From: a virus
IMG/VR virus record: IMGVR_UViG_3300046028_008523
Location: 1 to 58,790 of that record
Strand: one strand, 5' to 3'
Length of the DNA: 58,790 nucleotides
Made by a program: the position numbers and the translations under genes. This document shows positions 285 to 42,700 of this stretch, in pieces (the first letter of the stretch is position 1; every line of letters starts with the position of its first letter). The notes beneath the pieces are model-generated. The model was not told the DNA's origin. It searched no databases and saw nothing but the letters and a program-made list of their open reading frames with translations.

Positions 285-795
285 CACAACTCGCGTTGTG
301 CTTACCAGCTATGGCCACTTAACAAAACGGGCGCTGATCCCGTGTTAATTACGAAAGTCAGCCGTTAAACCACTACTCCAGTGGAAACGTCAAAAGAAGC
401 CGAAGCCAATAGTGGGCATAGGGATGAGTCAGGAAGCCTTGTACAAGGTGAGACTGTAAAGAACTATGACATGATTTGGGAGCATTGCCACATTTTTGGT
501 ACTCGTTGCGCGGAAGCGCACGTGGTAATGTGACGCAAAGAAACTAGTACACATCTAACGAGGATAGGTATCCGTTAGTTGAGGAGAAACCTGAGTGCTG
601 GTCACATCAGTGTTGTGGAGACAACTCAATACTTACACATCTTGTCTAGGTTCTCCTATGGAGAACGCTAGTGAATCTGCAGTGTGTGCAGTGAATACAA
701 CTGTAAACTCTCCTTGGAATGGGGAGGATGATTTAAGCAGCGTTACCAAGAACGTATGCGGCGCATCCTAAAAGGTTGTAAGATAAAATTTAGGT
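285..795 (+). ncRNA. Candidate large structured non-coding RNA
   Basis: About 500 bases with no convincing reading frame but many clean hairpins: CACAAC/GTTGTG (285-290 with 295-300), ACGGG/CCCGT (327-331 with 339-343), TGCGC/GCGCA with a GGAA loop (507-520) inside a longer helix (484-491 with 522-529, one G-T wobble), CTAACG/CGTTAG (555-560 with 573-578), GTTGT/ACAAC with a GGAG loop (612-625), GTTCTCC/GGAGAAC (650-666) and CTGCA/TGCAG (677-691). It runs into a tRNA-like element at 797-841 and is followed by a terminator. Size, phage setting and closeness to tRNA-like sequence recall the ROOL and GOLLD families, but I cannot verify a match to either consensus. Exact ends are uncertain. Confidence 0.5.
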
Positions 796-796
796 C

Positions 797-841
797 TGCT
801 CAGACCATAAGGGGTATGTGGTTCGAATCCGCACTGAGCAA
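797..841 (+). ncRNA. tRNA-like T-arm and acceptor module A
   Basis: A T-arm (stem 817-821 with 829-833, loop TTCGAAT at 822-828) is followed by CTGAGCA (834-840), which pairs perfectly with TGCTCAG at 797-803. Only 30 bases lie between the two strands, too few for D and anticodon arms. It is therefore either a minihelix of acceptor plus T-arm, or the 3' part of a tRNA whose 5' part lies further upstream. A partial upstream match to the acceptor strand (TGCTTAC, about 298-304) would pair at six of seven positions. The same arrangement recurs at 3441-3480. Confidence 0.45.
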
Positions 842-1098: not shown

Positions 1099-1695
1099 AT
1101 GATCAACAACACAACAAAACTCATCGTGGCGCTCTTAATGAGTGCCGCCTTATTCATGGGCTTAGTAATGGGCAACATGATCGGCAAGAGAGATGCCGAA
1201 CTTATCCAACCTGAAACAGTTTGTAGAATTGACACTGTTTACCTTTATGGCGTGCAAGATACACTCTTCATTCCAGTAAGAGAACCAGTCGTCATTTCCT
1301 CAGCCCGTAAAGCTGCACCGCCTCCAAAAGCACTCGCTTGGTACGAACCTGACAGTTGCCAATGTGGCACAGGCCGAGAGGCCTTGGTGTACTTCATTAA
1401 CGACAACAAGCTTATTCATTACTTTGAGAATGGTGAGACTGAGGTATACCACCTCAAGTCTAAGGAGTTTATCAAGGAGTTCGTAGAGAACTCCATTCAA
1501 GTGTATGGCTGGGCAACGCTGCGAAATCGCTCATACGAAATAACGGACTCTGATCATATTGTAATGAGGACCCCATATCGCGAGACTGGGGTACGACAGT
1601 TCAAGTTCACTGGCGAGCATTACGAGTACCCAAATGGTAAGCAGGGAAGAAGGTTGTCCTTCCCCATATCGGGAAATAAAATTATCTGGGAATAA
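1099..1695 (+). CDS. Membrane-anchored protein of unknown function
   Basis: 198 residues. Residues 8-27 form one hydrophobic segment rich in alanine, leucine and methionine, with a lysine before it and GKR after it, as expected of an N-terminal membrane anchor or signal. The rest (aromatic-rich, with a C-Q-C pair near residue 85) would lie outside the cytoplasm. It starts 28 bases after the tRNA. A role in the envelope is inferred from topology only; the fold is not recognised. Confidence 0.7.
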   Translation: MINNTTKLIVALLMSAALFMGLVMGNMIGKRDAELIQPETVCRIDTVYLYGVQDTLFIPVREPVVISSARKAAPPPKALAWYEPDSCQCGTGREALVYFINDNKLIHYFENGETEVYHLKSKEFIKEFVENSIQVYGWATLRNRSYEITDSDHIVMRTPYRETGVRQFKFTGEHYEYPNGKQGRRLSFPISGNKIIWE

Positions 1696-1950
1696 AAAAT
1701 CCCACTCCTAGACCCGATGAGCAGCACAAGGTATGTTCTTTTATCTTTGTCAAAAGTAAAAGGTGCTGTATTTGAAAGGGGGAGTGGGGGTATAGGCTGG
1801 TCGAGCAGCCATAAAAACCTGATTCAGCAGGTAATACCAAATATACTGAATGCTCAAGGGAGCACAAAACAATTGAGTTTTCTTATTCAGACAATAGAAA
1901 GTGTGTACGGGCGTATATGGCTACTATAGTCTATTTCTCATCACAATGCC
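1696..1950 (+). other. Intergenic region without a convincing gene
   Basis: TCCCACTCC near 1699 can pair with GGAGTGGGG near 1780, giving a long-range hairpin downstream of the preceding gene. A 70-codon frame from 1717 exists, but its composition is poor and it lacks a ribosome binding site, so I do not call it. Confidence 0.35.
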
Positions 1951-2014
1951 CCAGGTTCGACTTTTCTGACTTGACCGGAGATACATGCCGGAATGAATAG
2001 ATCGTTGAACCTGG
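1951..2014 (+). ncRNA. Small structured RNA element
   Basis: An 11-base-pair outer stem (1951-1961 with 2004-2014; CCAGGTTCGAC against GTTGAACCTGG, one wobble) encloses an inner CCGG/CCGG hairpin (1975-1978 with 1988-1991). There is no T-tract after it, so a simple terminator is unlikely. It resembles a free-standing structured RNA or a leader element for the small genes that follow. Function unknown. Confidence 0.45.
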
Positions 2015-2033
2015 AGCTATTTAAACACGTACA

Positions 2034-2219
2034 ATGAGATCCTTACACGCATCTTGGTATCAGATATTAGCTACGGCACCGATAAGTAAGGATTTCATTC
2101 TTTACAAACTTGCGATTAGCAGTGAAAAAGCAGCAATGCTATCCTTACTAGCTATAGCACTAATCCTAATACACAATGAAATATATCGTTATCGCAGTCG
2201 CCATGATATTTCTGGCTAG
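2034..2219 (+). CDS. Possible small membrane protein
   Basis: 61 residues with a plausible transmembrane segment at about 34-47 (AMLSLLAIALILI). It overlaps the start of the lipoprotein gene by 44 bases in another frame and has no clear ribosome binding site. It may be a chance frame; it is listed because small membrane proteins are common in this region. Confidence 0.3.
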   Translation: MRSLHASWYQILATAPISKDFILYKLAISSEKAAMLSLLAIALILIHNEIYRYRSRHDISG

Positions 2220-2391
2220 CTGCACACCGGAACCAAAGTTCATCCGTTGCCCTGTTCCGGGTTGCGGAGATCCGGTCTTCTATCCTGAGGATCAGATTGA
2301 TAAGGTCCATACGGATCACTATTCAAACAAGGAACACAAGTCTGATCTATCCAGCGCTCAGATCAAAGATCTTCTAACCCGCAAAAAATAG
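2176..2391 (+). CDS. Small lipoprotein
   Basis: 71 residues with a classical lipoprotein signal: hydrophobic core from residue 3, then lipobox L-A-S-C with cysteine at 16. The mature part holds a zinc-finger-like C-x4-C pair (CPVPGC) and histidines further on (HTDH, EHK), so a small metal-binding site is possible. Expected on the periplasmic face of a membrane. No family recognised. Confidence 0.75.
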   Translation: MKYIVIAVAMIFLASCTPEPKFIRCPVPGCGDPVFYPEDQIDKVHTDHYSNKEHKSDLSSAQIKDLLTRKK

Positions 2392-2399
2392 GAATCAGA

Positions 2400-2775
2400 C
2401 TTAGTTGAATGAGACTGGGATGCAGTTGTAAAACAGCTCCCGGTTTTAAAAAGAAATAGGTTAATAGGTGATAAGGGGAGTACCGCTGTAATAGTAGGAC
2501 TCCTCTACTTGTTAACTTTTAGAGACTTCATATTAAAATGGTTTTACCCAGTGGATGTCGAAAGATAGAAGCTGGGGTTTTAAAAGACTGTGCCGCTTTA
2601 GGTGCATTGGCCCGAAAGGGTCCCGTGGGTGCTTTGGGTGTAACCCTATGCAACCCCACACGCTCGTTCCACGCGAGCTTAACGGACTTTTGTCCAACGG
2701 AAGGCACACCGTCCAAATGTGCCAAATGGTGATCACCGGGGGGTAGGGAGTCTTCTCTGCCCCCACACTTTTAAA
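2400..2775 (+). ncRNA. Second structured non-coding region
   Basis: About 375 bases with overlapping open frames on both strands and in several phases, the usual sign of GC-rich non-coding sequence. Hairpins visible: CCCAG/CTGGG at about 2549-2579, GGCCC-GAAA-GGGTC (GNRA loop) at about 2609-2622, GCTCG/CGAGC around 2662-2678, and GGAC/GTCC around 2683-2697. These lie between a lipoprotein gene and a membrane-protein gene. It may be an independent RNA or a long 5' leader for the gene at 2780. Its boundaries are uncertain. Confidence 0.45.
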
Positions 2776-2779
2776 CAAC

Positions 2780-3028
2780 ATGGAAAAGAGATTACATTTA
2801 ATCTTTATGGTATATCAAGTAGTTATACTCATTCGACTACTCGCATCGCCGAGCCCGGAAGCAAGTGTGCTCAATGTGATTGCCAACTTCGCATTAGCCG
2901 GTGTCATGTTCTATGCATACTGCAAGAACAGAAACAAATGGCTCTTGTTTACAGGGATGAGTGCTTTAGCAGGAAATGCTGTACTACTTACAATGGTTGA
3001 TTTCTTAACAAAATTTTATAATTGGTAA
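2780..3028 (+). CDS. Small multi-pass membrane protein
   Basis: 82 residues with three hydrophobic stretches, at about 7-22, 31-47 and 54-75, separated by short polar loops (one with CKNRNK). This topology is compatible with a holin, but size and hydrophobicity alone do not prove that. The next gene begins 2 bases downstream, so they are probably co-translated. Confidence 0.65.
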   Translation: MEKRLHLIFMVYQVVILIRLLASPSPEASVLNVIANFALAGVMFYAYCKNRNKWLLFTGMSALAGNAVLLTMVDFLTKFYNW

Positions 3029-3030
3029 AT

Positions 3031-3258
3031 ATGGGGTATCTATTAGCGATCATAATCGCATTAGGAGTTATGCAGTTAATCATAACCATGAACCATGCCA
3101 AGTCAAAAGCAGGTCGGACAAACAAGCTCATTGAGGACGGATTCAGGATAACGCCTGAGCTGGTTAAGCTTAATGAGCAAAAAGCTCGTAATGAACGGCT
3201 GTTAGCTACAGCAATCGCTGCGATCGTACTACTCATCATATACGTCTTCATATTATGA
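3031..3258 (+). CDS. Small two-helix membrane protein
   Basis: 75 residues from ATG 3031; a TTG three codons earlier lies inside the preceding gene and is less likely. Transmembrane segments at about 2-20 and 56-75 flank a charged centre (KSKAGRTNKLIEDG). It follows the preceding membrane gene with a 2-base gap. Together the pair could be holin- or spanin-like, but no diagnostic feature is present. Confidence 0.6.
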   Translation: MGYLLAIIIALGVMQLIITMNHAKSKAGRTNKLIEDGFRITPELVKLNEQKARNERLLATAIAAIVLLIIYVFIL

Positions 3259-3436
3259 CAGAGTACGTCTTCGCACCAAAGAATTACAAAGAGGGAGAGG
3301 TGGAAACGCCTCTCTAAGCGGGGAATGCTCGAAAATCTACTCTCTCCAAATGAGGAGGGGGTTACCAGAGCGTTTCTTTAACACAGGAAGGATATTGCCG
3401 TATGCAGTCGGAAGATAGTATACGGATTTTTTAATC
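3259..3436 (+). ncRNA. Structured leader upstream of tRNA-like module B
   Basis: Contains a perfect 8-bp hairpin with a GAAA tetraloop (GAGAGGTG/CGCCTCTC, 3295-3314) and further short helices. No convincing coding frame. It probably belongs to the same transcript as the tRNA-like module at 3441, mirroring the arrangement at 285-841. Confidence 0.4.
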
Positions 3437-3440
3437 TAAG

Positions 3441-3480
3441 CCAGCCTATAGGGTAAGCAGTTCGAATCTGCGCTGGTCAC
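3441..3480 (+). ncRNA. tRNA-like T-arm and acceptor module B
   Basis: T-arm GCAG-TTCGAAT-CTGC (3457-3471) is flanked by CCAGC (3441-3445) and GCTGG (3472-3476), which pair with each other. The bases just before the T-arm read ATAGGGTA, close to ATAAGGGGTA in module A. No normal D or anticodon arm fits between the strands. The trailer starts AAAGATTGTTTTT, as after module A. It could be the 3' part of a tRNA with an unrecognised 5' half. Confidence 0.45.
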
Positions 3481-3506
3481 GAAAGATTGTTTTTGGTTGA
3501 ACACTC

Positions 3507-3540
3507 AAGGGGCTGTAGTAATATAGCCCCTTACCTTTTG
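3507..3540 (+). terminator. Intrinsic terminator
   Basis: AAGGGGCT (3507-3514) pairs with AGCCCCTT (3525-3532), followed by ACCTTTTG. It lies downstream of tRNA-like module B and upstream of the gene at 3577. Confidence 0.55.
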
Positions 3541-3576
3541 TATCCCCTAATTGTTCACATATAAATTCATATAGCA

Positions 3577-3978
3577 ATGAACTTAATTACTGGCGTTATC
3601 GCCGCAATCGCCCTCTTAGTAGGGTATCTTATCGGGGCAAGAAAAAAAGCTGCGGCTCCGGCAGCAATTGCAGTAGCGTCTGGAGAAGAAATACTTCAGA
3701 ATGCAGCTGTAAGAATTATTGAGACATCTGTCTCTCTATTTCTCTCTACCTTCGTAATGGAGATGAAGGCAGTTTCGGCTGCTGATGTCAAAATGTTGAT
3801 GGAGCAAAAGTACAAAGAGCAACTGTCTGCAATACGGCAGGCATGCATCTTGTTAACAGCTAATGATGGTTTATCATTAGCCATCCTTAAGGCTAGCGGA
3901 CTCAAGTTCACCGAGGAGGAGCGTGAACAATTCAACAACGCATCTAACCAGTACACTCATGAGCAATCTGCCGACTAA
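3577..3978 (+). CDS. Small membrane-anchored protein
   Basis: 133 residues. Residues 1-20 form a glycine- and alanine-rich transmembrane segment followed by ARKK, so the bulk probably faces the cytoplasm. An Ala-rich linker leads to predicted helices with a charged C-terminus. It overlaps the next gene by 20 bases, suggesting coupling with that cell-wall hydrolase. No known family recognised. Confidence 0.65.
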   Translation: MNLITGVIAAIALLVGYLIGARKKAAAPAAIAVASGEEILQNAAVRIIETSVSLFLSTFVMEMKAVSAADVKMLMEQKYKEQLSAIRQACILLTANDGLSLAILKASGLKFTEEEREQFNNASNQYTHEQSAD

Positions 3979-4714
3979 AGGAGGAGATATTAAGATATTT
4001 CCGGAACTAAAAATCGTATTTCCAGAACAAAAAGTGTCTCGTGCTAAGGTTGGCGACCTTATAAAAACTGTAGCTAAAGGCTATACGCCTGCCTTAATGA
4101 CGCTCTTATTATTTTTGTTTCTTTACTCAGCTTTCCAAGCACCACAAAAGAACCCTGTGCCTGCTCAAGGAAGCGCTATACTTATTGATTCTGTGAAAAC
4201 AGGGCATAATGAATATGTCGCTAAGAAGGTATGGATAAAGAAGGACAGGGTGACAAACTCGGCTGCGCCAGTTGCTAACCCCTTAAACGCTAACGAGTAT
4301 ATAACTCGTTTTTTAAGTATCGCCCAAACAGAGCAAGCTCTGTTTGGCATTCCGGCAAGTATAACTCTTGGCCAAGGGCTGATTGAATCGAATTCAGGTA
4401 ACTCTGGGATTGCCCAGTCTTGCAACAATCATTTCGGAATAAAGTGCTTTTCGAAGCATCACCGAGGCTGTTGTGAGAAATGGGCAGATGACAATAACCA
4501 TGATTCCTTTAGAAAGTTTACATCGCCTTGGTATTCTTTTAGAGAGCACTCTAAACTGCTCTCTAAGCCACACTACAAATCTCTGCACCAGTATGGTAAG
4601 GATTATAAGAAGTGGGCTTATGGACTGAAGCGTAAGGGTTATGCGACCGACAAAACTTATGCCGAAAAGCTCATCGGCATCATTGAGCGATATGATCTCC
4701 ACAAATATGACTAA
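3959..4714 (+). CDS. Peptidoglycan hydrolase, glucosaminidase (GH73-like)
   Basis: 251 residues from ATG 3959. After a cytoplasmic N-terminus of about 40 residues, a membrane anchor (about 47-60, LMTLLLFLFLYSAF) is followed by a linker and a glucosaminidase domain from about residue 115. The hallmark region reads ITLGQGLIESNSG, with the likely catalytic glutamate in LIES, then NNHFGIKC and later W-Y-S-F-R, as in FlgJ/autolysin-type enzymes that cleave the glycan strand between N-acetylglucosamine and N-acetylmuramic acid. The anchor would place the catalytic part in the periplasm, consistent with a role in lysis or envelope remodelling. The reading frame also opens at 3923, but that start lies deep in the upstream gene. 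Confidence 0.85.
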   Translation: MSNLPTKGGDIKIFPELKIVFPEQKVSRAKVGDLIKTVAKGYTPALMTLLLFLFLYSAFQAPQKNPVPAQGSAILIDSVKTGHNEYVAKKVWIKKDRVTNSAAPVANPLNANEYITRFLSIAQTEQALFGIPASITLGQGLIESNSGNSGIAQSCNNHFGIKCFSKHHRGCCEKWADDNNHDSFRKFTSPWYSFREHSKLLSKPHYKSLHQYGKDYKKWAYGLKRKGYATDKTYAEKLIGIIERYDLHKYD

Positions 4715-4964
4715 CACACCAGAGACACCACAGACAATTCAAGCTCGTGCCCTTGCGAACAAGGATGAATGGTGCTTTTACTATACTCTTACTGAGCTTT
4801 CCCAAACTGCTTTTCATGTTATGTGGAGCAGAGGAAAGTTCTACGTAAGAAGGGTTGAGCAATGTACTGTAATCGTAGGAGCGCATGTAGTTCATCGCCG
4901 AATCGAGTATACGGCTGACCATAGCAACTTCAATGTAGCTATGGACACAGCTCGGAAGTCATAA
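4707..4964 (+). CDS. Hypothetical protein
   Basis: 85 residues from ATG 4707, which overlaps the stop of the hydrolase gene in ATGACTAA; earlier in-frame ATGs at 4641 and 4692 lie further inside that gene. Aromatic-rich, with alternating strands (FHVMWSRGKFYVRRV) that suggest a small beta-rich fold. Function unknown. Confidence 0.6.
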   Translation: MTNTPETPQTIQARALANKDEWCFYYTLTELSQTAFHVMWSRGKFYVRRVEQCTVIVGAHVVHRRIEYTADHSNFNVAMDTARKS

Positions 4965-4965
4965 A

Positions 4966-5052
4966 GCCTGCTCGGTGAGAGGAAATCTGAAACAAGGATG
5001 TGCGGTGGTGCCTCTTGCTGGTGAAGTGAGAGCTCTCGTAAGCCGGGCAGGT
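4966..5052 (+). ncRNA. Small structured RNA closed by a 9-bp stem
   Basis: CCTGCTCGG (4967-4975) pairs with CCGGGCAGG (5043-5051), with one wobble, and encloses 67 bases that contain a second potential helix (GAGAGG at 4977 with CCTCTT near 5012) and a GAGAGCTCTC palindrome near 5029. The element starts two bases after the preceding stop codon. It is not a tRNA and no T-tract follows. A riboswitch-like or free RNA role is possible. Confidence 0.45.
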
Positions 5053-5141
5053 AAAAAGATAGCCTTTAATCTATATATAACGTTAACACACTTCCCCTCT
5101 GAAAGCAGTGGGGTTGTGTGTTGTTTAAAAATTGAAAAACT

Positions 5142-5345
5142 ATGGAAGAAGATAAATTCCCACGATATATGTGGGTAGTAGTAGGAATACTGTTAGTAGG
5201 ACTGATTGAGTTTGTGCTCTCCTTACTTAGGTATATCCCAAAGGACATGGTCTACCCAATCTGGGGACTCTGCCTATTAATCAGCTTAGTATTTCTCCTC
5301 GTTGTTGGCGGGGTAGCTACTTATAAGCATTTCAAAAAAAAATAG
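5142..5345 (+). CDS. Small two-helix membrane protein
   Basis: 67 residues with two strong transmembrane segments (about 9-29 and 36-58) joined by a short loop (RYIPKD), and a lysine-rich C-terminus (YKHFKKK). Class II holins have this general layout, but the sequence itself gives no family match. The stop codon lies in the first strand of a hairpin that precedes a tRNA. Confidence 0.65.
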   Translation: MEEDKFPRYMWVVVGILLVGLIEFVLSLLRYIPKDMVYPIWGLCLLISLVFLLVVGGVATYKHFKKK

Positions 5346-5385
5346 TTTGTTGACCCGAGCTCTCATTAAGCTCCCTCAAACTATT
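5341..5385 (+). other. Hairpin between a gene end and a tRNA
   Basis: AATAGTTTG (5341-5349) pairs perfectly with CAAACTATT (5377-5385), with an inner GAGCT/AGCTC stem. The hairpin abuts the first base of the tRNA at 5386. It could be a processing signal for the tRNA 5' end or protect the upstream mRNA. Confidence 0.5.
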
Positions 5386-5483
5386 GGGAAAGGGAATAGG
5401 TGTCATTAGGAAACCGAACGGTATGCCGGTCTCGCAACCTAGTGCCTGTGCAGGCTTGAGGGGTTCGAATCCCTGCTTTCCCA
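5386..5483 (+). tRNA. Probable class II tRNA, atypically long
   Basis: Acceptor GGGAAAG (5386-5392) pairs perfectly with CTTTCCC (5476-5482). A long variable arm GCCTG-TG-CAGGC and a T-loop TTCGAAT are clear. At 98 bases it exceeds the usual 85-90. The best anticodon stem (TTAGG/CCTAG) would enclose about 27 bases instead of 7, so the anticodon cannot be read with confidence. It may be a Leu- or Ser-type tRNA with an insertion, or a degenerate gene. Confidence 0.55.
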
Positions 5484-5520
5484 CTGATTTTATTATTTAA
5501 CGCTTTAAAAACATATAACT

Positions 5521-6402
5521 ATGTCCAAGCAAATTTTAGGTTCCATTTTCGTTTCGCTGTCATCCCCTTTCGCTGAAATTTCTGTCGCTGGTGATCCAGC
5601 GAAGAAGAACATTGCAAACCTTGCCGGAGTGTTCGGTCCTGATGACTGGAACAAACTCCCAAAGGAGTTCACCAGCGCTTTCGATGCGGTTATCAAAGCA
5701 AAGTCAGGTAAGGGGGAGGCTTACGAGCCGTTGTTCAATTCCAAGCCCGATAAAATGCGCACAAACAGGGCTAAAGTGCTAGGAGCGTATGAGGTGGGGT
5801 TACAAGAAGAAGTAAGTGCCGAAGACTTCGACAAAGTGTTGCTGTTGAACTATGCAGTAAAAGAAACCTGCGAAAAAATCGCAGGGGCCGCTGCAACTGA
5901 AAACAGCATCGAAGGACTCGAGTCCTTCTTGGTGTCGATCATCGAAGCTGAAGAAGCAGCACCAGAAGTGGTGGCAGAAGCTCCAGCTGCAATCGAAACA
6001 GCCCCAGAACAGGGTGTAAACGAAATCGCACCTGAAGTAACAGCTGAAGTGCTTACAGTTGAGGAGCAGGCAGAAAACCTGACTGAAGGCGCCGAACATG
6101 TAACCGACGCTATCGAAGAGGTACAGGAAGTTGCAAACTTCACGGCCAGCACGAACACTTTTCTTGAGCAGTTGAAAACTGCACTTGCAGCAGGATCTGA
6201 AACCCAAGAGGCAGTGTCCGCACTCTTGGAGAATCATGCTGCAGCAGCCAAAGCGATAGCTGAGGTGCATGCTAAGGCAACTGCACAATCCAAGGCAACT
6301 AATGCTGCAGTAGTTTCGTTCCTTACGATCCTTCAGGACTCAGGGGTGCAAATCGGAAGTGGTGCAGCAGCACCTACTTTGCCTGAAACAGTAACGGCGT
6401 AA
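5521..6402 (+). CDS. Acidic alanine/glutamate-rich protein
   Basis: 293 residues. An ordered-looking N-terminal part (about 1-140) is followed by a low-complexity Glu/Ala/Val tract (about 140-205, with repeats of the EAAPEV kind) and an Ala-rich helical C-terminal part (about 210-293) likely to form a coiled coil. No catalytic motif is visible. It is the first gene after the RNA-rich segment, with a 37-base gap from the tRNA. Function unknown; a structural or scaffold role is only a guess. Confidence 0.75.
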   Translation: MSKQILGSIFVSLSSPFAEISVAGDPAKKNIANLAGVFGPDDWNKLPKEFTSAFDAVIKAKSGKGEAYEPLFNSKPDKMRTNRAKVLGAYEVGLQEEVSAEDFDKVLLLNYAVKETCEKIAGAAATENSIEGLESFLVSIIEAEEAAPEVVAEAPAAIETAPEQGVNEIAPEVTAEVLTVEEQAENLTEGAEHVTDAIEEVQEVANFTASTNTFLEQLKTALAAGSETQEAVSALLENHAAAAKAIAEVHAKATAQSKATNAAVVSFLTILQDSGVQIGSGAAAPTLPETVTA

Positions 6403-14969: not shown

Positions 14970-15977
14970 ATGATTTATGAGTATTCAGATTACGAGTTTA
15001 AAGTAGTTACTAAGTATGAGGTGCTGAAGTACCTTAAGAATAAGAAAGTTGTTTTCTTAGATAGTGAGACTACAATAGAAGATTTCCCTAGAATGCTGTC
15101 ATTTCAAATTGGTGATGGATTTAAACAATTCATTATTGATGTGAGATATGGAGATATGAGTTTTCTATTTCCAATACTACGTTCTAAGGAAGTGACAAAG
15201 GTCGGACATAATATAAAGTTCGATTATAAAGTACTGAAGCACAACTTTGGATTAGTCATGGAGAATATCTTTGACACAATGTTAGGAGAGCAGGTGTTGT
15301 ACACCGGACTTTCTCAAGCAAAAGGTTTCTATTCTTTAGAGCAAACCGCGATTCGATATACAAAGATTAGCTATTACAGCAGTCAGTTGTCGCTATTTAC
15401 GCCGTATGCTCCTAAGAAAACTCGAATGGAGATATCTAAAAACCTAGTAAACCCATTTAGTGATGCTGAATTGTATTACATGGCTGCAGATATTATGTCT
15501 GTAGTTGCTGTATTTGCCAAACAAACCGCAAAACTTAAAGAAGAAAGTCTATTAACTGTAGCCGAGGAAGAAAGTGAAGTAGCCCTAGCAGTAGGCGATA
15601 TGGAGCTAAACGGTATGAAGATAGACACTAAAAGATGGATGCAACTAGGTGACTGGGCTGTGGGGAAGAAAGAAGAACAGTTAGCTATCTTAAAAGAGTT
15701 AGCTGACATCAACTGGAACTCCCATCTCCAAGTAAAAAAGGTTTTTAAAGAGCGAGGTCTAAACCTGATGTATAAAGGAAAGGAAAGTGTAGAGGAGAAA
15801 GCGATCTCTAAATATAAAAACGATCCAGTCATCGACGCTTATCTTAAGTATAAAGGATTTGAAAAGTTAAACACAACTTATGGATTCTCTTTCTTAAAGC
15901 ATGTAGCTGATGATAACCGAATACATTCTAATTTTCAGCAGATTATGGTTACTGGTAGGATGTCTTCCCAATCTCCT
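14970..15977 (+). CDS. polA: DNA polymerase I (family A), exon 1
   Basis: First 336 codons of the replicative DNA polymerase. I choose ATG 14970 because earlier in-frame methionines lie inside the preceding peptidase gene. The exon holds the 3'-5' proofreading exonuclease: motif I LDSET (about residue 30), motif II GHNIKFDYK (about 79) and motif III YMAAD (about 170). It then enters the polymerase domain and stops inside the conserved T-G-R-x-S-S-x-x-P-N-L-Q-N-I-P motif, at codon P (15975-15977). Without splicing, translation would end at a TAG 24 bases into the intron. The joined protein is about 593 residues, near the size of other short phage family A polymerases. Confidence 0.9.
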
Positions 15978-16269
15978 AATTTAAATTGGGCGTTTAGGTA
16001 GTGATATCTAAAATGAATCGGATGAACTCAGGGAAACCCTTCATAAAATGGGCAATCCTGAGCCAAGCTCTTAACGCTTTAAGAGAAGGTGCAGAGACTA
16101 GTTGGTGTGAATAGCGATTCACGTAATACAACATTAGCGTCCGAATACTTTACTATATACAATTAGCAGATTAGATTAGGAAAAAAGCTAGCTTAAAAAG
16201 TAAAGTATGTGATATAGTCCGTTCCCATAAGATGATAAATTATGGGTCGTGGGGATTAACTCCATAACG
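15978..16269 (+). mobile_element. Group I intron 1 in the DNA polymerase gene
   Basis: 292 bases with no open frame. Core elements are clear: the P3-P4 type sequence AATCCTGAGCCAAGC (16054-16068), the P7-region GGTGCAGAGACTAG (16088-16101) and the matching GATATAGTCC (16211-16220). The upstream exon ends in T and the intron ends in G at 16269, as the splicing mechanism requires. Joining the exons restores S-P-N-L-Q-N-I-P in frame. It lacks its own endonuclease gene, so it is a mini-intron. Confidence 0.9.
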
Positions 16270-16380: not shown

Positions 16381-17362
16381 TATGTATAAAAACAACATAT
16401 TATTTGCATGATCGTAATAATCTTCGTAACTTTACACAAAAAGTTTATGAAGTACAACGAGAAGAAAATAATAACACGTTATGAAGGTGGTGAGCATGCA
16501 AATTCGATAGCTAAAAGCTTAGGAACATACAACACCACGATTAGAAGAATATTGCTTAGAAATAATATAAAACTCAGAGGTTGCCATGAAGCTCAAAGAA
16601 CAGTCCATCACAATCCATTTCTAAAACCCCAATCCGACTACTGGTTAGGTTTATTAGCTACGGATGGTTGTAATACAAATGGGGCCTTAGTCCTTGAGCT
16701 AAAAGAAAATGATGAGTATATATTAGAAGAGTATGTTAAACATATAGGTACGCCAATTAACATAACAAAAACCTATTCTAAGAAATTTGATAGCTACCAG
16801 AGTAGGGTAGCTTTCCGGAATAGAGAAGTTATTGAGTTTATGAATTCGATAGGCATAGTACCTAGGAAATCTCTAACATTAGATTTAAAATACCCTATAT
16901 CTTGGGATTTTTTTCGAGGTGTTGTGGATGGGGATGGACATATACATACGACCAGAGATAAGAGAAGAGTTTCTATCTGTATAGGATTAGGAGCGAGAAA
17001 GTTTAGAGATCAATTATCTGAATTTTTAACCGCTAACGATATCGCTCATATGTGCAATGATAGAACTTTATATTTTGTTGAGGTGCATAGAAAAGAAGCA
17101 ATATTAAAGTGTTATAATAATATGTACAAGGAAGGCGTACCTTTTCTGAAAAGAAAATACGAAAAATTTGGCTACGCTTTTGAGAAATCAAGAGTTTTGG
17201 ATCTCGCTAAAACGGGGAAAGTTCCTTCAACCAATCCCGTGCTAGCAAGTAGTTGAGTACTGTAATACTTTGAAACTACTGGGCAAGTGTAGAGACTTTA
17301 CACGAGATACCTAAGGCTTACAGGCACGGTAAAGAGAAAGTCCAGCTGGAGACAACCAGCCG
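16381..17362 (+). mobile_element. Group I intron 2 with endonuclease gene
   Basis: 982 bases. The upstream exon ends in T (16380) and the intron ends in G (17362). Removal joins DYSS to QELR, restoring polymerase motif A. Core sequences lie at the 3' end: AATCCCGTGCTAGCAAG (17233-17249, P3-P4 type), AAGTGTAGAGACTTTAC (17285-17301, P7 region) and AAAGTCC near 17337. Nearly all of the extra length is the homing endonuclease gene, inserted upstream of the core. Confidence 0.85.
16447..17256 (+). CDS. LAGLIDADG homing endonuclease
   Basis: 269 residues from ATG 16447 (an ATG at 16408 would add 13 hydrophobic residues that do not look native). The N-terminus has a helix-turn-helix-like segment (HANSIAKSLGTYNTTIRRIL), followed by two LAGLIDADG motifs: WLGLLATDG at about 66 and FFRGVVDGDGHI at about 154. 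The terminal aspartates are catalytic metal ligands. Two motifs imply a monomer that cuts an asymmetric site, here expected to be the intronless polymerase allele. The last codons overlap the intron core. Confidence 0.88.
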   Translation: MKYNEKKIITRYEGGEHANSIAKSLGTYNTTIRRILLRNNIKLRGCHEAQRTVHHNPFLKPQSDYWLGLLATDGCNTNGALVLELKENDEYILEEYVKHIGTPINITKTYSKKFDSYQSRVAFRNREVIEFMNSIGIVPRKSLTLDLKYPISWDFFRGVVDGDGHIHTTRDKRRVSICIGLGARKFRDQLSEFLTANDIAHMCNDRTLYFVEVHRKEAILKCYNNMYKEGVPFLKRKYEKFGYAFEKSRVLDLAKTGKVPSTNPVLASS

Positions 17363-35400: not shown

Positions 35401-36754
35401 CACCATGATCTATTACTAAGTCAGGTGTTCCTCCCACATTCATAATCTTACTTACCATAGAAGGTTCCGCAATAAGCTTATCAGTTCGTAATGAAGGATT
35501 ATCGTTATATGCATTTGTGCCTGTTCGACCAATAATACGCTTTATTGCTTCAGCATCTAACCAATCAAATTCTTTAGGCGCAATACCTGATACCGAATAC
35601 ATCTCAGATAAACCCGTGTTATCACCAGAAATAAAGTTAGAAATAATTTTGTGAAAGATTATTCCTTTGTACTTACCTATCTCATAGGTCTCATCTACTA
35701 ATCGTTTATATGTTTCATAATCTACTGCAGTAACGAACTGAGAGAACTTCTTCTTTTCAGTCTTGTCAGTATCTTTCCAAAAGTTATCAGCTTGACGAGT
35801 TCCGAAAGTATCCACAAGAGTAAATGGTTTATGTTGCATAGCAGGCATAAACTCATTAGTCACTGTCTGGTATTCTTCACCATCCATTGTATACACCTGT
35901 TTAATCTCATCTTTAACTGCATTAGACAACACAGAGTAAGAGGGAGAAACGGGGTACTTAAGAGTAAGGAAATCTCTGAATGCTTTTACATCTTCAGGAG
36001 TGCCAATAAAATGTACCTGCTCTGGTTCATGTACTGCAATCTCATCGTACTCATCATTGTATACACCATCATATCCTTGATCCTTACCTAATGATGGGAG
36101 TATGTGTTTAGATCTCTGCTCTCTGAAATCGTCCATAATAGCAGGAAAATCATTAGACTTAGAAGTGAGAAGGTTCTTTATATTCACTAAGAATAGCCCA
36201 GGTTCTCCATATTCACTAACAGTACTTTCATAACCAAGACCAAAATAAAAACCAGCTCCTGAAGGGTATAGTCCTGAATACCCAGACAAACCTATAGCAC
36301 TCTTGTCAAACTTCTTAGGTTGCTTTAAATATTCTTCCAGACTTTGTAATCTTTGCAGATCGAATCCTTCTAAAGTACCTTGTTGTTTTTGTAATCTGAG
36401 ACTTTCTAATTCTCCATTACGAACATCCATGTATTCTGGAAATTGCGTATTAATTTGCCCAGCATGATAAACAATATCTTTAATCGCTGATTTAGGGAAA
36501 ATAGAATTTAAGTAAGCTGCATATTCTTGCTGGTTACCAACAGTACTTAACTGTGGATATTTTCTAAAGGCTATATCAACTCCTGAAATTGAGGGGGCCG
36601 AAGCCCCTACTATCTCATTCGCATTTGGAAAATGATCCGCATTATTCTTATCCTGCCAGATAGCAACCTTAGCAGATAACAATGGTACTGAAAGGCCAGT
36701 TTGTTCTTGGAGGGCCTTAAACTCCGGATTATTAATATTTACGCATTTAGCCAT
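32444..36754 (-). CDS. Virion polyvalent protein with ART-like and nuclease domains
   Basis: 1436 residues, last gene of the minus-strand operon; its ATG overlaps the end of the giant gene (ATGGCTAA). Residues about 90-260 resemble an ADP-ribosyltransferase-type domain of polyvalent proteins (IVYHAG, GAGFYFGLG, YGEPGLFLVNI, QGYDGVY, EPEQVHFIG). Residues about 365-520 form a PD-(D/E)XK nuclease of RecB type: GTPDLVI (441), FDLKTG (458), LQIMLYAMMI. The remaining 900 residues are not recognised. Long multi-domain proteins like this are packaged and injected in crAss-like phages; that localisation is inferred from the family. Confidence 0.75.
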   Translation of the reverse strand: MAKCVNINNPEFKALQEQTGLSVPLLSAKVAIWQDKNNADHFPNANEIVGASAPSISGVDIAFRKYPQLSTVGNQQEYAAYLNSIFPKSAIKDIVYHAGQINTQFPEYMDVRNGELESLRLQKQQGTLEGFDLQRLQSLEEYLKQPKKFDKSAIGLSGYSGLYPSGAGFYFGLGYESTVSEYGEPGLFLVNIKNLLTSKSNDFPAIMDDFREQRSKHILPSLGKDQGYDGVYNDEYDEIAVHEPEQVHFIGTPEDVKAFRDFLTLKYPVSPSYSVLSNAVKDEIKQVYTMDGEEYQTVTNEFMPAMQHKPFTLVDTFGTRQADNFWKDTDKTEKKKFSQFVTAVDYETYKRLVDETYEIGKYKGIIFHKIISNFISGDNTGLSEMYSVSGIAPKEFDWLDAEAIKRIIGRTGTNAYNDNPSLRTDKLIAEPSMVSKIMNVGGTPDLVIDHGGDIFSVFDLKTGKHFDRNFELDFFKYGRAGDADIFVNPRNKAKLQIMLYAMMIKLNNPKARFKNLEVVHVTNRYNIDEIDSARFINTPAYLKMIKSYLQAERPSTYKAMLEASPSIFDTATYNYVSANKYGNKEAGEVLKLKMLELQSLVMFDTNLYKNITVGKHSGKERYVQIAELIKEINELKRDPEMDLKSWDTDMGWMDRWMGTNTASTNPYIKAYYSILSEKKQHARTAHGKWRAAFDDVLNPLIEERTGKPYSKVIGGIDRTKLFEWAYKGTRLYHADDSEFKSFSQAQQNFLNFVNNSVEMFFNDKLANYENIPKGNTALANRVVTFTERAGRKLNVTNLDLFNGKYSNSSRPEFAYYKGFFPKYAPQLYDVARRYSTFSKETLKFIYNRTFTYYYEMVFDKWDASREAIPMKYLDNDHIMDQQAYTLNLELSLDNFVKQNFYKLHMDEVYAYGLGLKLYLDFNKRMENGAEKPRLEAYIEDSVNLHILGKKSTGIDFSGRSFGKVTEEGYKQFSGVKFLRSVKSYFSGVTMWLKPVSGSVNAVFANLVTLKEAARNSFGSKVGNASFGLSHLREGYAEAIGMFGRDAFTGNFRTTKGWLLMEQFGYMPDNVDWYSSKNEMLTANNNLFTTKTLTLFHSLPEEVLATSMFIAQLKAMKTVDKNGNEISMWDAYEVVDGNITYQGGSRGQRSTSNFSDKPSYKEVLGLEIEEVNAMKFLYEKIHGGYRLDERVAAEYYILGELMMQLKRYLPSILKNVWASRGTRQGEGFFKKEVDIHGKEILKWDASIVEGRWRMLLGLLFNRLAIQNSTPGDKGSKIREFFGFQFDESYDWDKLSEQQKEDLKDFAITSALYFFMILAGKSMWDDDDKDTTKKMFYRITDDFGSYVSPIEILKNAINLSAPVTAKKSIAMLDSSSKFFWSVLMYTVGMDDKALTRDGNFRGSKDLQRSIPFISAYHDLYSKMENDSYFQQFLDVRTY

Positions 36755-39700
36755 TGCAATCTAATAATTTTTGTTGCTCTTCTGGACTGTATTGTGAAAA
36801 TTCCTCAAGACTTAAACCGAAGGCTCTTAACACGTTATCTACTGACTTAGGTACTCCGTCTTCATCCCAATCAGATAATACTGCTGTATCGGAGATGTCT
36901 TGAAACTTTATGATAATACCTGAACCTGTTGGGTTCTTAGTAACGCTTCCTACTTGTACTTTCCTACGTAATGAGCGATCATAGTTATAACTAGGAGTTA
37001 TAAAAATTATATCATCCTTTTTAACTCCGTTAATTAATTTAGAGTAAGTAAGTGCAGTAGTTGGAGACTCTTGAACTGTATGAACAGTAAGTTCTGTAGG
37101 AGTAAAGTTTGTTGCTATATTGTAGTTATCAGGAGTTTCTGTATAATAAACATCATTTATATTTCCCACTTTCTGGTAATACCCGTAATCTGGGGTAAAA
37201 AGAACAAGCTTAAACACAGTAGTTTTTTGCTTGTATGTATCCTTAATGTAAGGTGGGAAAGCTTTGGCTTCTCCTTTATCGTTCTTCTCAGGAGTAAACC
37301 TTTTATCAAAGAACACCTTAATACGAGTATCCGTGTTAGGTAATGTTATTATTTCATAACCAGCATCTATAGCTTTAGCCTGTGTAACTGGATCATATGG
37401 AATGAACGAAGCAGATCTATCGTAATAGATCTTAGGTAGCCTATTTGCATTTGTAATTACGTTAAACAACGCAAAGTGATTAAGCTGCGCACCTGTAACA
37501 CCTTCAGAAGCGTTTGTCAACTTAGTTACATATCTATCTATAACGTTTTTAAACATTGTAGATGGAATATATGCTGCGTAAGAAGAGGATGAGTTGTCCA
37601 AGCCAAGATTAAGTAGTGCGTACACTAAAAGATCTCGTTGTATTGGAGATACCTTAGACGAATCAAGAACTAAGGATCTTGTAACTTCACCATTGATGAT
37701 TGTATACTGGTTAAGTTGTTTAAAACCTAATGCAAGTTTAGCAATATCTTCTGGTTGAATACCTATACCTGCTCTAAAACTAAGTGTACGAACTTTCTGA
37801 TCATTAAACTGTATAGAAAGCGTGTTTAAGAATTCGTTACGTTCACCTAATGGGTGAGTTCTGTCATAAGCTTGTAACTTCTGAATAAACGTAGCAACTT
37901 CATCATTAAATGTTCTTTGTTTAGAAAGTACATATGAACCTCCATCAGAAAGAGTAACTGCTTTAGGAGTTACTAAGGAAAGCCTCGACTTGATTAACGG
38001 GTCAGAAGCTAGCAGGTAATTAGAGAATGCACGGCGAATTTTAACATACTCTTCTCCAGTTTCATCTGCAGAGTTAAGCGTTACTGCTTTGTAAACTTCT
38101 TTAGACATATGTATCATAGGATCAGAGTGGAGTGACCACTTGTCTTTAATAAAGGAAATCAGATCCGTGTTTACTTCGTAAGCAGCTTTTAAATGTGCCG
38201 CAGAGTTGAACATGTTAGGAATAATGAATGAGAAGTCTTGACGAGACTTAAGTACTCCATCTTTATATGTACCTATCTTAGCTTCTAGCAACTCTTGGTT
38301 CTTAAAGATATTCTGAACAAACACTTCCTGCTCTTTAACAATGTTAAGGAACGTAGATAATGATCTCATATCCCCACCAATCTTAAAGCCTTTAGCGAAA
38401 AGATGAACCGCAGCTGCAGTGATTTCATCATTAGGAGTTGTTATATTATTTTTCAGATCTTCGAGAGACAACACCTTAGTACTTACTGGGTACTTCTTTA
38501 AAAGATCAGCTACAAACGTACTAGCGTTCTTAACTTTAGATTTAGTTAATGGTTTGAATACATCTTGATATAATAACGCAATTATAGCTTCCATTGGCAT
38601 ACCTGTAGAAACAAGTCCTACTACTGCATTACCTATGTTCTGGTTAATACCAGCGCGATATAAATAACCAAGTTTCAAGTTATCTATCGCAGCATTAGTA
38701 AGTGTATCAAGAACTTGAGTAACTAAGTATTTGCCTTCAGCATCTTTAGTAGCGATCCTATCAAACAGTGTATCTTCTCCGTTTATATTGAAGCGATAGC
38801 GAGTATCATAATTTAGAACCGGTGAACGGTACTCTTTAAACTCGAAAGTTTTATAATAGTCGTCCTTAGCTTTCTGTAAATTATCTATCTGTTTATTAAG
38901 CGCAGTTTTCTTATCAGCATCAGAAGTCATCAATAACTCTTGTTGAAGTTCTCCAATAGAAATATAAATTTTATTTAAAGTTTCCTCCGCACCAGCAGTA
39001 GCTAAGTAACCAAATGATTTAGCTGCATTAGCAAAGGCACCAGTTAATACAACACCAGCTGTAAGCATTTCGAATGCTTGAAACTCATCTTCTAAGTTAG
39101 TTAAATCTAAGTCCTTACCTTGTTGAAACTGTTTGTAGAAATCATCATCAATGATGTCTGTAAGAGCAGTAAAGGCAATTGGGGTAGTCATACGATACTT
39201 ATTGTTCTCGTCCGTAATAACATCTAACATAGTCTCTGTGACAGAGTTCTTAAGGTACTTAGCTTTGAGAGACTTGAGAGATTTAATACTTTTAGAAATT
39301 AATCCTCCAAACCCAGCTTTTAACTCCTCTTGTAGAGAACCTTCTAAGCTTTCTAGTGCAGCTAAGTTATATTTGATATAGTTTAGGTATTCTTTAGATA
39401 AAGAATACTTGTTGTTTACAACCTCATAACCTACTGGAGTATCGGCATTAGTATTTATCATCACATCTTCAGTAGAAACTATCTCAGTTATAAACTTAAG
39501 AACTGTCTCGAGATAAGGAATAAATGAAGGATTTAAGGTTGAGAAGTCTTCAATCTTAGTAATCATTTCTGAAAACGCACTTAATACAGTAGGTTCCATA
39601 ATTTTATCTGGACCCATTACTATGTGATTACGTTTCATCCAAGATTTACGGAATGTAGCTTCATTAGGAGCTTTAGAAGCTATGAACGCCTCTTGGAACT

Positions 39701-42700
39701 TACGTTCTAACTCAAGTCCACTATCAGTAGTAGCTGTAGCAACTTCTACGGATAACTTAAATTGTTCTTTAAACGTACGCTTTAATTCCTGCAGTTTTAA
39801 TATGTCTTCTTGACTTTCAAGTGTATCTTCTAAACTTTTTAACTCATTAAACACTTGTCCAAGTTTAGATATAAGTCCTGTTAACACAATTCCATCTACA
39901 TAAGAAGCTTCAGAAATGCTTACAGTCTCACGCATAATTACAAAGAGACTATCTACGTCAAAGTCACTACCATGAATAGGCACTAACTCTTTAGGAGCTA
40001 TAATCACGTTTGTTTTACCACCAGGATATGTGTCTACAATACGAAATGCAATTGCAGAGTGGAGTTCAGTAGAAGGAATACGAAATGCCATACCATCAGG
40101 CATAGTATAAATACTCTGGCCGTTCTTAAGCGCCACACGCTGTTCTGTAGTAAGTAACTCAGCAGGAACTACAACTTCAGCTACTAACATTTTTCTCCCA
40201 TTTACTTCTTCATACTTGTAAGTAAGCGCATCTAGATTTGTTTTGTTAGTTGCAACTATATCTGTTCCTGTATCCCAAGACACACCTTCTGCTGTTTGAA
40301 GTACAAGCTTACCACCTTTAAACTTAATCTTGGTAGTAGATTTTCCTAAACCAGAAGCAAGTGCAATGATACCTTTCTTCTCAAGAATTGGGTGATTATG
40401 GTTTACACCATTATATATAAGGTCAAGAGCTCTTTCAGATCCTGAACCTCCCAAGTTCTTAGCTAAGTATTTATTCAACCCTTCTTTAGTTAAAGTATCG
40501 AAGAACTCTTTCTTACCATCGTTTATTAACTCTGCTATCAAATCATACACCTGTCTTGCTGCAACTTGTGTATTCTCGTAAGCAGGATTCTTAAGCTTGT
40601 CTCCATATACATTTAAGAAGTACATCAACTGAGAGTAAACTGAAACATCTTTCTCTACGTCTGTAGTAGCATTGAACTGTAACCGATAATTGTGATTAGA
40701 TAGCGTAAGAGATGGCAGTACTGGCGCAGAATCATATGCATCTGCAAAATCACTTAACATTCCAACAGCTCCTATTCCTTCTAAAGAAGATAAATCAGTA
40801 TCCTTGCCAGCTACTTTTTTCATAATATTAGCCATCGTAGGATATTTCAAAGGCACACCTTCTTCAGAATATAAAATAGGCAATCCAACTTTGACAGCGG
40901 ATCTAAAGACAGCTTCATCATTACCCTGACTCTCCATCACTTCTCGTAACCTTGCAAGATACTTAAACTTAGCACATAACTCGTCAGTAAGGACTACTGT
41001 AGAGTTTTTAACATACCGAGCGATTGAAGTACTCATTACAGGGTTACCATCTTTATCATTGAAAGTATGTGGGTCTATACCGAAGTACACAGGCTTGTGG
41101 ACATTACCTAATGTCCAAGATTTCTCAAAGCCTTTAGAAAGATCTGCTAAGCGAGCAGGAGTCATAAACCCTTGCGCATCTGTAGACTCAAACTCATCAC
41201 CAAAAAATGTCATAAAGTTTTCGAACTCTTCTTTCTCATTCTCAGGTACTACGCCGCCGAAGAACAGCTCTGCAAACTTAGCTCGTGTAGTTTCTAATCC
41301 GACTACTGTATCAGCAAGGATAGCAAGTTTGTAGGTCTCTTTCATACCTATTATTGGGTCAACTAACCCACGAATACCAGGAGCTTTTGTCCCAGCAAAA
41401 CGTTTAATAATCATATCTACAGAAGGAAACGCTGAGTAGTCACCTAAATATAATTGATTTAAATGATAAGAGTTAACAGTGTTATTTAAGTAAAAAAGAG
41501 TAAACAATGGTAAAATTAAATTTATATTGCCCTTATCACTAGATTTAAAATTAATAATTTCCTCACCTTTAGTAAAGTCATATTGAATAGTATCTAAAAG
41601 TTCATTAAACTCACCACTAAAGAGGTTCTTTTCTTTTTCAGCGTTTCGTAAAGAAAGCATGGTAGCGATCATTCGTTTATCAAAAGAAGGTTCTAACTCT
41701 TTAATATTGTTCTCTAAGTAAGTAAGCGCTTCTTTCTTTAAGTAATCGTAAGCACGAGCTGCGAGTTCATCAGAAGGAATCTCTCTCCAATTAGGAAACT
41801 CAGTACTTACCTTTAAGCCAACTTTAAAGTTAGCGAATAGATTAGAACTAAGTGACTTCTCATACTTCTCGATATCTATGATACCTCTTTCTAATAGATT
41901 TGCTTTCGCTTTTAAAGAATCAAACATTTCTGCTATACCATATTTTGTCTTGTCCATAGAAAGTAATCCTAAACGAACTAATGGATGCTTAGGAGAGTCT
42001 GAAGGAACAAAAGAAAACTGGTGGTAAGAATTTCCATATTGACGAATGCCGTCTACAAATCCAGTAATAAACTTACGCTGGAAGAAAAAGAACTTGTTCT
42101 CACGTAGGTACTCGGTTGAAGAGCCATTGTCTTTATTCTTAGCGCCAGCATACTCACCTACAGCATAGATTCTATTCGCAGCTCTTTTTGGAGACTGTAT
42201 AAATATATTATGCTTATGTAAGTCGGTAAGTAGGTGATCGGGCACAACTCTAAATTTAGAATTCTTAGTTGATTGTGAGTTGATTAAAGAAGAATCTATA
42301 TCTATAATGTTGTTGAGTACATCATACATAAAGGAAGACTCGTGATACTTATAGAACTTATTACCATTAAGATCGAGTACAGATGGGTTACGAATAAACT
42401 CATCAGATCTAGCCATTGGTTTATTGATCTCAGAGATATAACCATCGACACTCTCTAGCCATTCAGGGAAGTTAAACACCTTAACAGTATCATCTTCAGA
42501 AGTAACAATGTCAGAAGTGACTTTAGCAGTATGGCTAAGCAATCCTTTTATCTTCTCTGCAAGCTCAGCAACCTCCTCATCTTTAATCGTCAGATTATTA
42601 GCTGGAAGATTCAGCATCTTATAGAAATATCGAATAGCCACTTTCTTAGCTTTTGGGTTACTACTTAGTGCAGCCCGTATTGTTGTAGGCTTGCCTTCTG

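Follow-up and report, generated by a model that had tools for sequence, protein, structure and literature searches.

A probable long structured non-coding RNA with a tRNA-like 3′ element beside a tRNA gene in a Crassvirales-type phage contig

The window analysed here is a linear viral contig of 58,790 bases (about 58.8 kb; record IMGVR_UViG_3300046028_008523). Its DnaB-like helicase is 34-37% identical to the DnaB of human-gut crAss-like phages, its polymerase A exon is similar to crAss-like polymerases, and its − strand carries giant frames of 1,436 and 5,044 amino acids. Judged by these three features of its sequence, the window is a fragment of a Crassvirales-type (crAss-like) phage, distant from the sequenced gut members. 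The most abundant phages of the human gut belong to the order Crassvirales. A close DnaB was present in only four IMG/VR contigs. In addition, the 5,044-aa frame (36747-51881, −) belongs to a set of giant proteins on its strand, and the polymerase A (polA) exon ends at a group I intron (15968-16246; Rfam, 90 bits), near which there is an ORF with a LAGLIDADG domain (16408-17256).

At the left end of the window, the gap from 270 to 1098 contains no plausible gene other than a tRNA-Lys. The features of this gap and of the neighbouring left end that are discussed below are the following.

1-269, + strand: left-end stretch carrying ORF 3-269, which runs off the contig end; either a small gene or a 5′ portion of the same structured RNA is possible
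270-796, + strand: putative body of the structured RNA, non-coding
309-421, + strand: 113-nt domain closed by 309-319/411-421 and enclosing hairpins 333-362 and 363-389
327-362, + strand: H-type pseudoknot ACGGG-C-GCTGAT-CCCGT-13 nt-GTCAGC (S1 5 bp, S2 6 bp, L1 1, L2 0, L3 13)
507-520, + strand: perfect hairpin with a GGAA (GNRA) loop
612-625, + strand: perfect hairpin with a GGAG loop
646-671, + strand: 11-bp hairpin CTAGGTTCTCC-TAT-GGAGAACGCTAG, mean pair probability 0.93
797-840, + strand: tRNA-like element 1, with acceptor TGCTCAG/CTGAGCA, D-loop-like linker ACCATAAGGGGTA and T-arm TGTGG-TTCGAAT-CCGCA, then A and C
956-982, + strand: intrinsic terminator, an 11-bp stem then TATTTTATTA
998-1071, + strand: tRNA-Lys(TTT), found by ARAGORN and by Rfam (54 bits)
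3259-3439, + strand: second structured non-coding stretch, upstream of element 2
3440-3477, + strand: tRNA-like element 2, GCCAGC-CTATAGGGTAA-GCAG-TTCGAAT-CTGC-GCTGGT
3507-3532, + strand: terminator-like hairpin (11 bp), 3′ of element 2
5385-5485, + strand: third tRNA-like element, with 8-bp acceptor TGGGAAAG/CTTTCCCA, T-loop TTCGAAT at 5464 and a 67-nt insert

The earlier note on this DNA had described a gene-free stretch of more than 500 bases, and this description was upheld: there is no ORF of at least 60 aa within 270-860, and the small ORFs of the region gave no credible match to Pfam or PHROG. The sole PHROG match among them, a weak one at E 0.009, corresponds to the T-arm read in antisense. 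Thus, a protein frame in the gap was rejected, since the small ORFs match no family and their codon use is mostly noncoding-like. Meanwhile, Bacteroidetes −7 promoter motifs (TAnnTTTG) occurred only at chance frequency.

We found no support for a left boundary at 285, which had also been proposed. The ORF at 3-269 has a codon-usage score below that of every sampled real-gene stretch and no match among protein families, and its DNA folds at z −2.8 to −4. For instance, no shuffle of 200 reached the energy of 1-270 (z −2.82), and sub-windows of this stretch, which includes hairpins at 229-255 and 75-115, gave z −3 to −4. A value of −8.7 for 61-180 came from 20 shuffles only, and a repeat with 200 shuffles on 60-180 gave −3.2. 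The poor codon score and the folded DNA together suggest that the 5′ end of the RNA may coincide with the contig end or lie beyond the contig. A longer RNA, which includes 1-269 and runs past the contig end, is therefore a possible but tentative alternative; the fold of 1-860 (z −3.37) points in this direction, and such an RNA would be compatible with the explanation that we prefer below. However, the frame 3-269 is open for 88 codons with coding-like GC at the three codon positions (GC1/2/3 0.51/0.41/0.57), and small genes in the GC-richer left end of the window also have low codon scores.

At least seven clean hairpins had been claimed for 285-841, two of them with GNRA-type or GGAG loops. 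We counted eight non-overlapping perfect Watson-Crick hairpins (stem of at least 5), while dinucleotide shuffles gave 2.8 ± 1.5 and none of 300 reached eight, although 8% of the other windows of equal size in this genome also carry eight or more such hairpins. Both loop types are present, at 507-520 and 612-625. In addition, the domain at 309-421 showed mean pair probabilities of 0.6-0.98 across five folding contexts. The H-type pseudoknot at 327-362 was spotted before being tested, and one like it appeared in 0.9% of shuffles; only three pseudoknots of this type were found in the 58.8 kb on both strands.

The folding energies of the window were scanned by sampling against shuffles. The energy of 270-860 is mildly low (z −2.19; 3 of 100 shuffles), and the − strand of the same stretch folds less well (z −1.43). 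The 150-nt sub-windows inside 270-860 mostly gave z −0.7 to −2.6, which is weaker than in other nearby gaps. Furthermore, a competing GGTCT/AGACC hairpin at 793-806 overlaps the 5′ strand of the element 1 acceptor.

At the 3′ end of this stretch, element 1 has an acceptor stem of 7 bp, then a linker of 13 nt and a T-arm whose loop is TTCGAAT, and the acceptor strands are 30 nt apart. Alignment with the tRNA-Lys places the linker on the D-loop. Thus, the element has an acceptor stem, a D-loop and a T-arm without an anticodon arm, which agrees with the tRNA-like 3′ module of the earlier note. Element 1 is not a canonical tRNA: the anticodon arm is missing, and the element was called neither by ARAGORN, with introns of up to 1 kb allowed, nor by the Rfam tRNA model at E ≤ 10. 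It lies within the presumed transcript, and the canonical tRNA-Lys lies downstream of the terminator. The terminator that had been claimed for the same stretch does exist as a strong one at 956-982, but this falls outside 285-841. A weak match to the L20_leader family at 860-996 (28.9 bits, cut-off 58.7) was rejected as an A/U-rich stretch plus the terminator. The L20_leader reading is also contradicted by the next gene, which is the tRNA-Lys and not a ribosomal-protein gene.

A second copy of this tail, element 2, was found 2.6 kb away. The two elements have GGGTANNNNGTTCGAATC in common, for which the chance expectation in the window is 0.00. Between them, four of the seven acceptor pairs are changed on both sides with the pairing kept (element 1/element 2, outward from the T-stem: G-C/C-G, A-U/G-C, C-G/A-U and U-A/C-G); of the remaining pairs, one is unchanged, one is G-U, and the last is lost. 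The T-stem of element 2 carries one more two-sided change relative to element 1. Compensatory changes were seen only between these two elements. When 0.91 Mb of Crassvirales-type sequence, this window included, was scanned for the shared motif, it was found outside tRNA genes only at 797-840 and 3440-3477. In addition, both copies come after structured stretches and before terminator-like hairpins. The tail is the best-supported part of the putative RNA, and the second copy, by its sequence, shows the tail to be a real element. The third tRNA-like element (5385-5485) is likewise read as a tRNA neither by ARAGORN nor by Rfam.

The chief alternative to a large functional RNA is a spacer with tRNA relics. 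In this case, elements 1-3 would be tRNA genes with lost or scrambled anticodon arms, the hairpins would be terminators and chance structures, and the whole region would derive from a tRNA array as in Steigviridae. This is consistent with the tRNA arrays of crAss001, DAC15 and cr111_1, which hold roughly 12 to 24 tRNAs each, with the only modestly low folding energy of the body, and with the lack of homologs in our searches of phages and Crassvirales genomes. The window shares with these arrays a non-coding, tRNA-rich Crassvirales region, but it combines a single canonical tRNA with several folded stretches and three tRNA-like elements that are non-canonical. Furthermore, the same part is lost in two elements, both of which retain six to seven acceptor pairs, the T-stem, the TTCGAAT loop and a GGGTA D-loop-like linker, and this is unlike decay. 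The strong terminator-like hairpins after both elements and the excess of hairpins over shuffles also argue against relics. We consider tRNA relics a less likely, though serious, explanation.

A ROOL- or GOLLD-type RNA had been suggested for the region, together with an Infernal search using the Rfam models. This search was run, and the identity did not survive it. The ROOL covariance model (RF03087) gave no match in the region at E ≤ 10 with permissive filters, whereas the positive control, L. salivarius plasmid pMP118, was found at 130.4 bits. The GOLLD model (RF02032) was also silent in the region at E ≤ 10, and its control genomes gave only weak matches below the cut-off. The ROOL and GOLLD identities were rejected on this basis.

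The region still has a context like that of ROOL, being on a phage record with the tRNA-Lys at 998. It also shares with ROOL the size range (about 550-580 nt) and the many hairpins, and with GOLLD the position of a large phage RNA near tRNAs. In passages of PMC12286853 on these RNAs, ROOL and GOLLD are known from phages and often lie near tRNA islands, the linkers of GOLLD can hold tRNAs, and ROOL is a homo-octameric RNA cage. The position of the window RNA thus resembles theirs, while the models place it in neither family. It differs from ROOL by its tRNA-like 3′ end, which those passages do not mention for ROOL, and from GOLLD by carrying the tRNA-like element at the 3′ end and without an anticodon arm. 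If the RNA were instead a divergent, cage-forming member of ROOL or GOLLD, its size, its phage origin and the adjacent tRNA would fit. Nevertheless, with no match in the models at E ≤ 10 or in the family searches, this explanation was already disfavoured and is highly improbable.

Another alternative is that the T-arm forms the 3′ end of a tmRNA, or of a tRNA gene interrupted by an intron of group I or II. The 3′ T-arm with its acceptor strand is indeed present, polA in this genome carries a group I intron, and an alternative acceptor strand matching at six of seven positions lies at 299-305. However, ARAGORN reported no tmRNA and no intron-bearing tRNA of up to 1 kb, and the perfect 7-bp acceptor partner of element 1 is local, as is the partner of element 2. 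A tmRNA was rejected on the ARAGORN result and the lack of any Rfam tmRNA match at E ≤ 10. A group I or II intron was rejected as well, as no intron model matched 1-1100 at E ≤ 10 while the polA intron served as a control at 90 bits. The tRNA-like domain of tmRNA is similar to element 1 in having an acceptor stem, a D-loop without a full stem and a T-arm, but element 1 has no long helix and message domain between the D-loop and the T-arm. A tmRNA or split tRNA is thus very unlikely.

Taken together, the best reading is that the region probably encodes a long, folded non-coding RNA that has a tRNA-like module at its 3′ end and a tRNA as its neighbour, the evidence for the body coming from a single sequence. 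Of the structured RNA claimed by the earlier note, the hairpins and the tRNA-like tail stood, but the folding energy is only mildly low, the left boundary found no support and the terminator lies outside the stated interval.

As an overall explanation, to which we give about an even chance, we propose a folded RNA on the + strand with a trans-acting body, processed at its anticodon-less tRNA-like tail. The transcript would run from a 5′ end at or before about 285 to the terminator at 956-982, and its body would end in element 1. The acceptor stem and the D-loop/T-loop elbow are the part of a tRNA bound by RNase P, RNase Z and the CCA-adding enzyme. As element 1 keeps the parts bound by tRNA end-processing enzymes, we infer possible cleavage by RNase P near 796/797 and possible action of RNase Z or 3′ exonucleases near 840/841.

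Such cutting would set the upstream RNA free or shield it, as mascRNA does at the end of MALAT1. MALAT1/mascRNA is a eukaryotic non-coding RNA with a small tRNA-like 3′ element. The likeness is that a small tRNA-like element, a plausible RNase P substrate, comes directly after a non-coding RNA; the difference is that MALAT1 is eukaryotic, while the phage element entirely lacks the anticodon arm. By this analogy, the tail is most likely a processing or stability handle of a structured phage RNA. As a working guess, the released body might be a structured RNA acting in trans during infection, and it would sit where ROOL and GOLLD sit near phage tRNAs.

The reported gap is not the most strongly folded one in the left 5.5 kb, where several other non-coding gaps fold more strongly. 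For example, the gap at 3259-3545 has z −4.3, and no shuffle of 200 reached the energy of 3280-3428 within it (z −6.24). This gap repeats the layout of the first RNA, with a folded stretch, element 2 and a terminator-like hairpin. The 389-nt non-coding gap at 2392-2780 is the most strongly folded one of the left end (z −6.65). It looks like a tandem series of two or three units, with terminator-like hairpins at their ends (near 2450, 2585 and 2765). The gap at 1696-2175 (z −4.3) contains a long CCAGGTTCGAC...GTTGAACCTGG hairpin around 1950-2015, and it is crossed by two ORFs of 60-70 aa with weak coding scores. Meanwhile, 4961-5060 gives a compact multi-branched fold (z −4.2) followed by a strong terminator-like hairpin at about 5084-5123. 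It should be noted that terminators account for part of the folding signal at the left end. The Rfam scan of 1600-5600 gave no match beyond chance, even at E ≤ 5.

Thus, the 270-840 RNA may be one of several in an RNA island within the first 5.5 kb. A stronger version, which we regard as rather doubtful, is that the first 5.5 kb form an island of unrelated structured RNAs, two of which carry a 3′ anticodon-less tRNA tag for end-processing or tRNA mimicry, with the 270-840 RNA founding a new class of large phage RNA.

Large phage RNAs such as ROOL and GOLLD are abundant and have striking structures, and to our knowledge no function has been assigned to them. If a distinct large RNA is indeed present in Crassvirales, it would widen the set of large phage RNAs. 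In addition, a repeated anticodon-less tRNA tail, if true, would give a clue to how such RNAs get their ends, and it could serve as a cheap search motif for more of them.

The searches for relatives by blastn found no homolog of the region in 50,697 phage records, in 72,556 plasmids or in eight Crassvirales genomes. These eight genomes were also searched with a covariance model built from the single sequence 305-425, which in 0.92 Mb matched nothing but itself. Homologs of the region were also absent from the IMG/VR motif scans, from the protein-guided scans (AAA ATPase, endolysin, DnaB and a 137-aa gene) and from the GTDB genomes searched with a DnaB profile. The nearest relative contig (L004/L008, DnaB 58%) stops short of the region. 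On that contig, a 505-nt non-coding gap (L008:17972-18476, −; z −3.7) lies between small genes near an endolysin, and it has no sequence similarity to the gaps of the window. Finally, in crAss001 (L036:16453-16596, −), the Rfam tRNA model spans 144 nt at 46.6 bits, which suggests an insert-bearing tRNA (insert of about 70 nt) that is absent from the ARAGORN calls.
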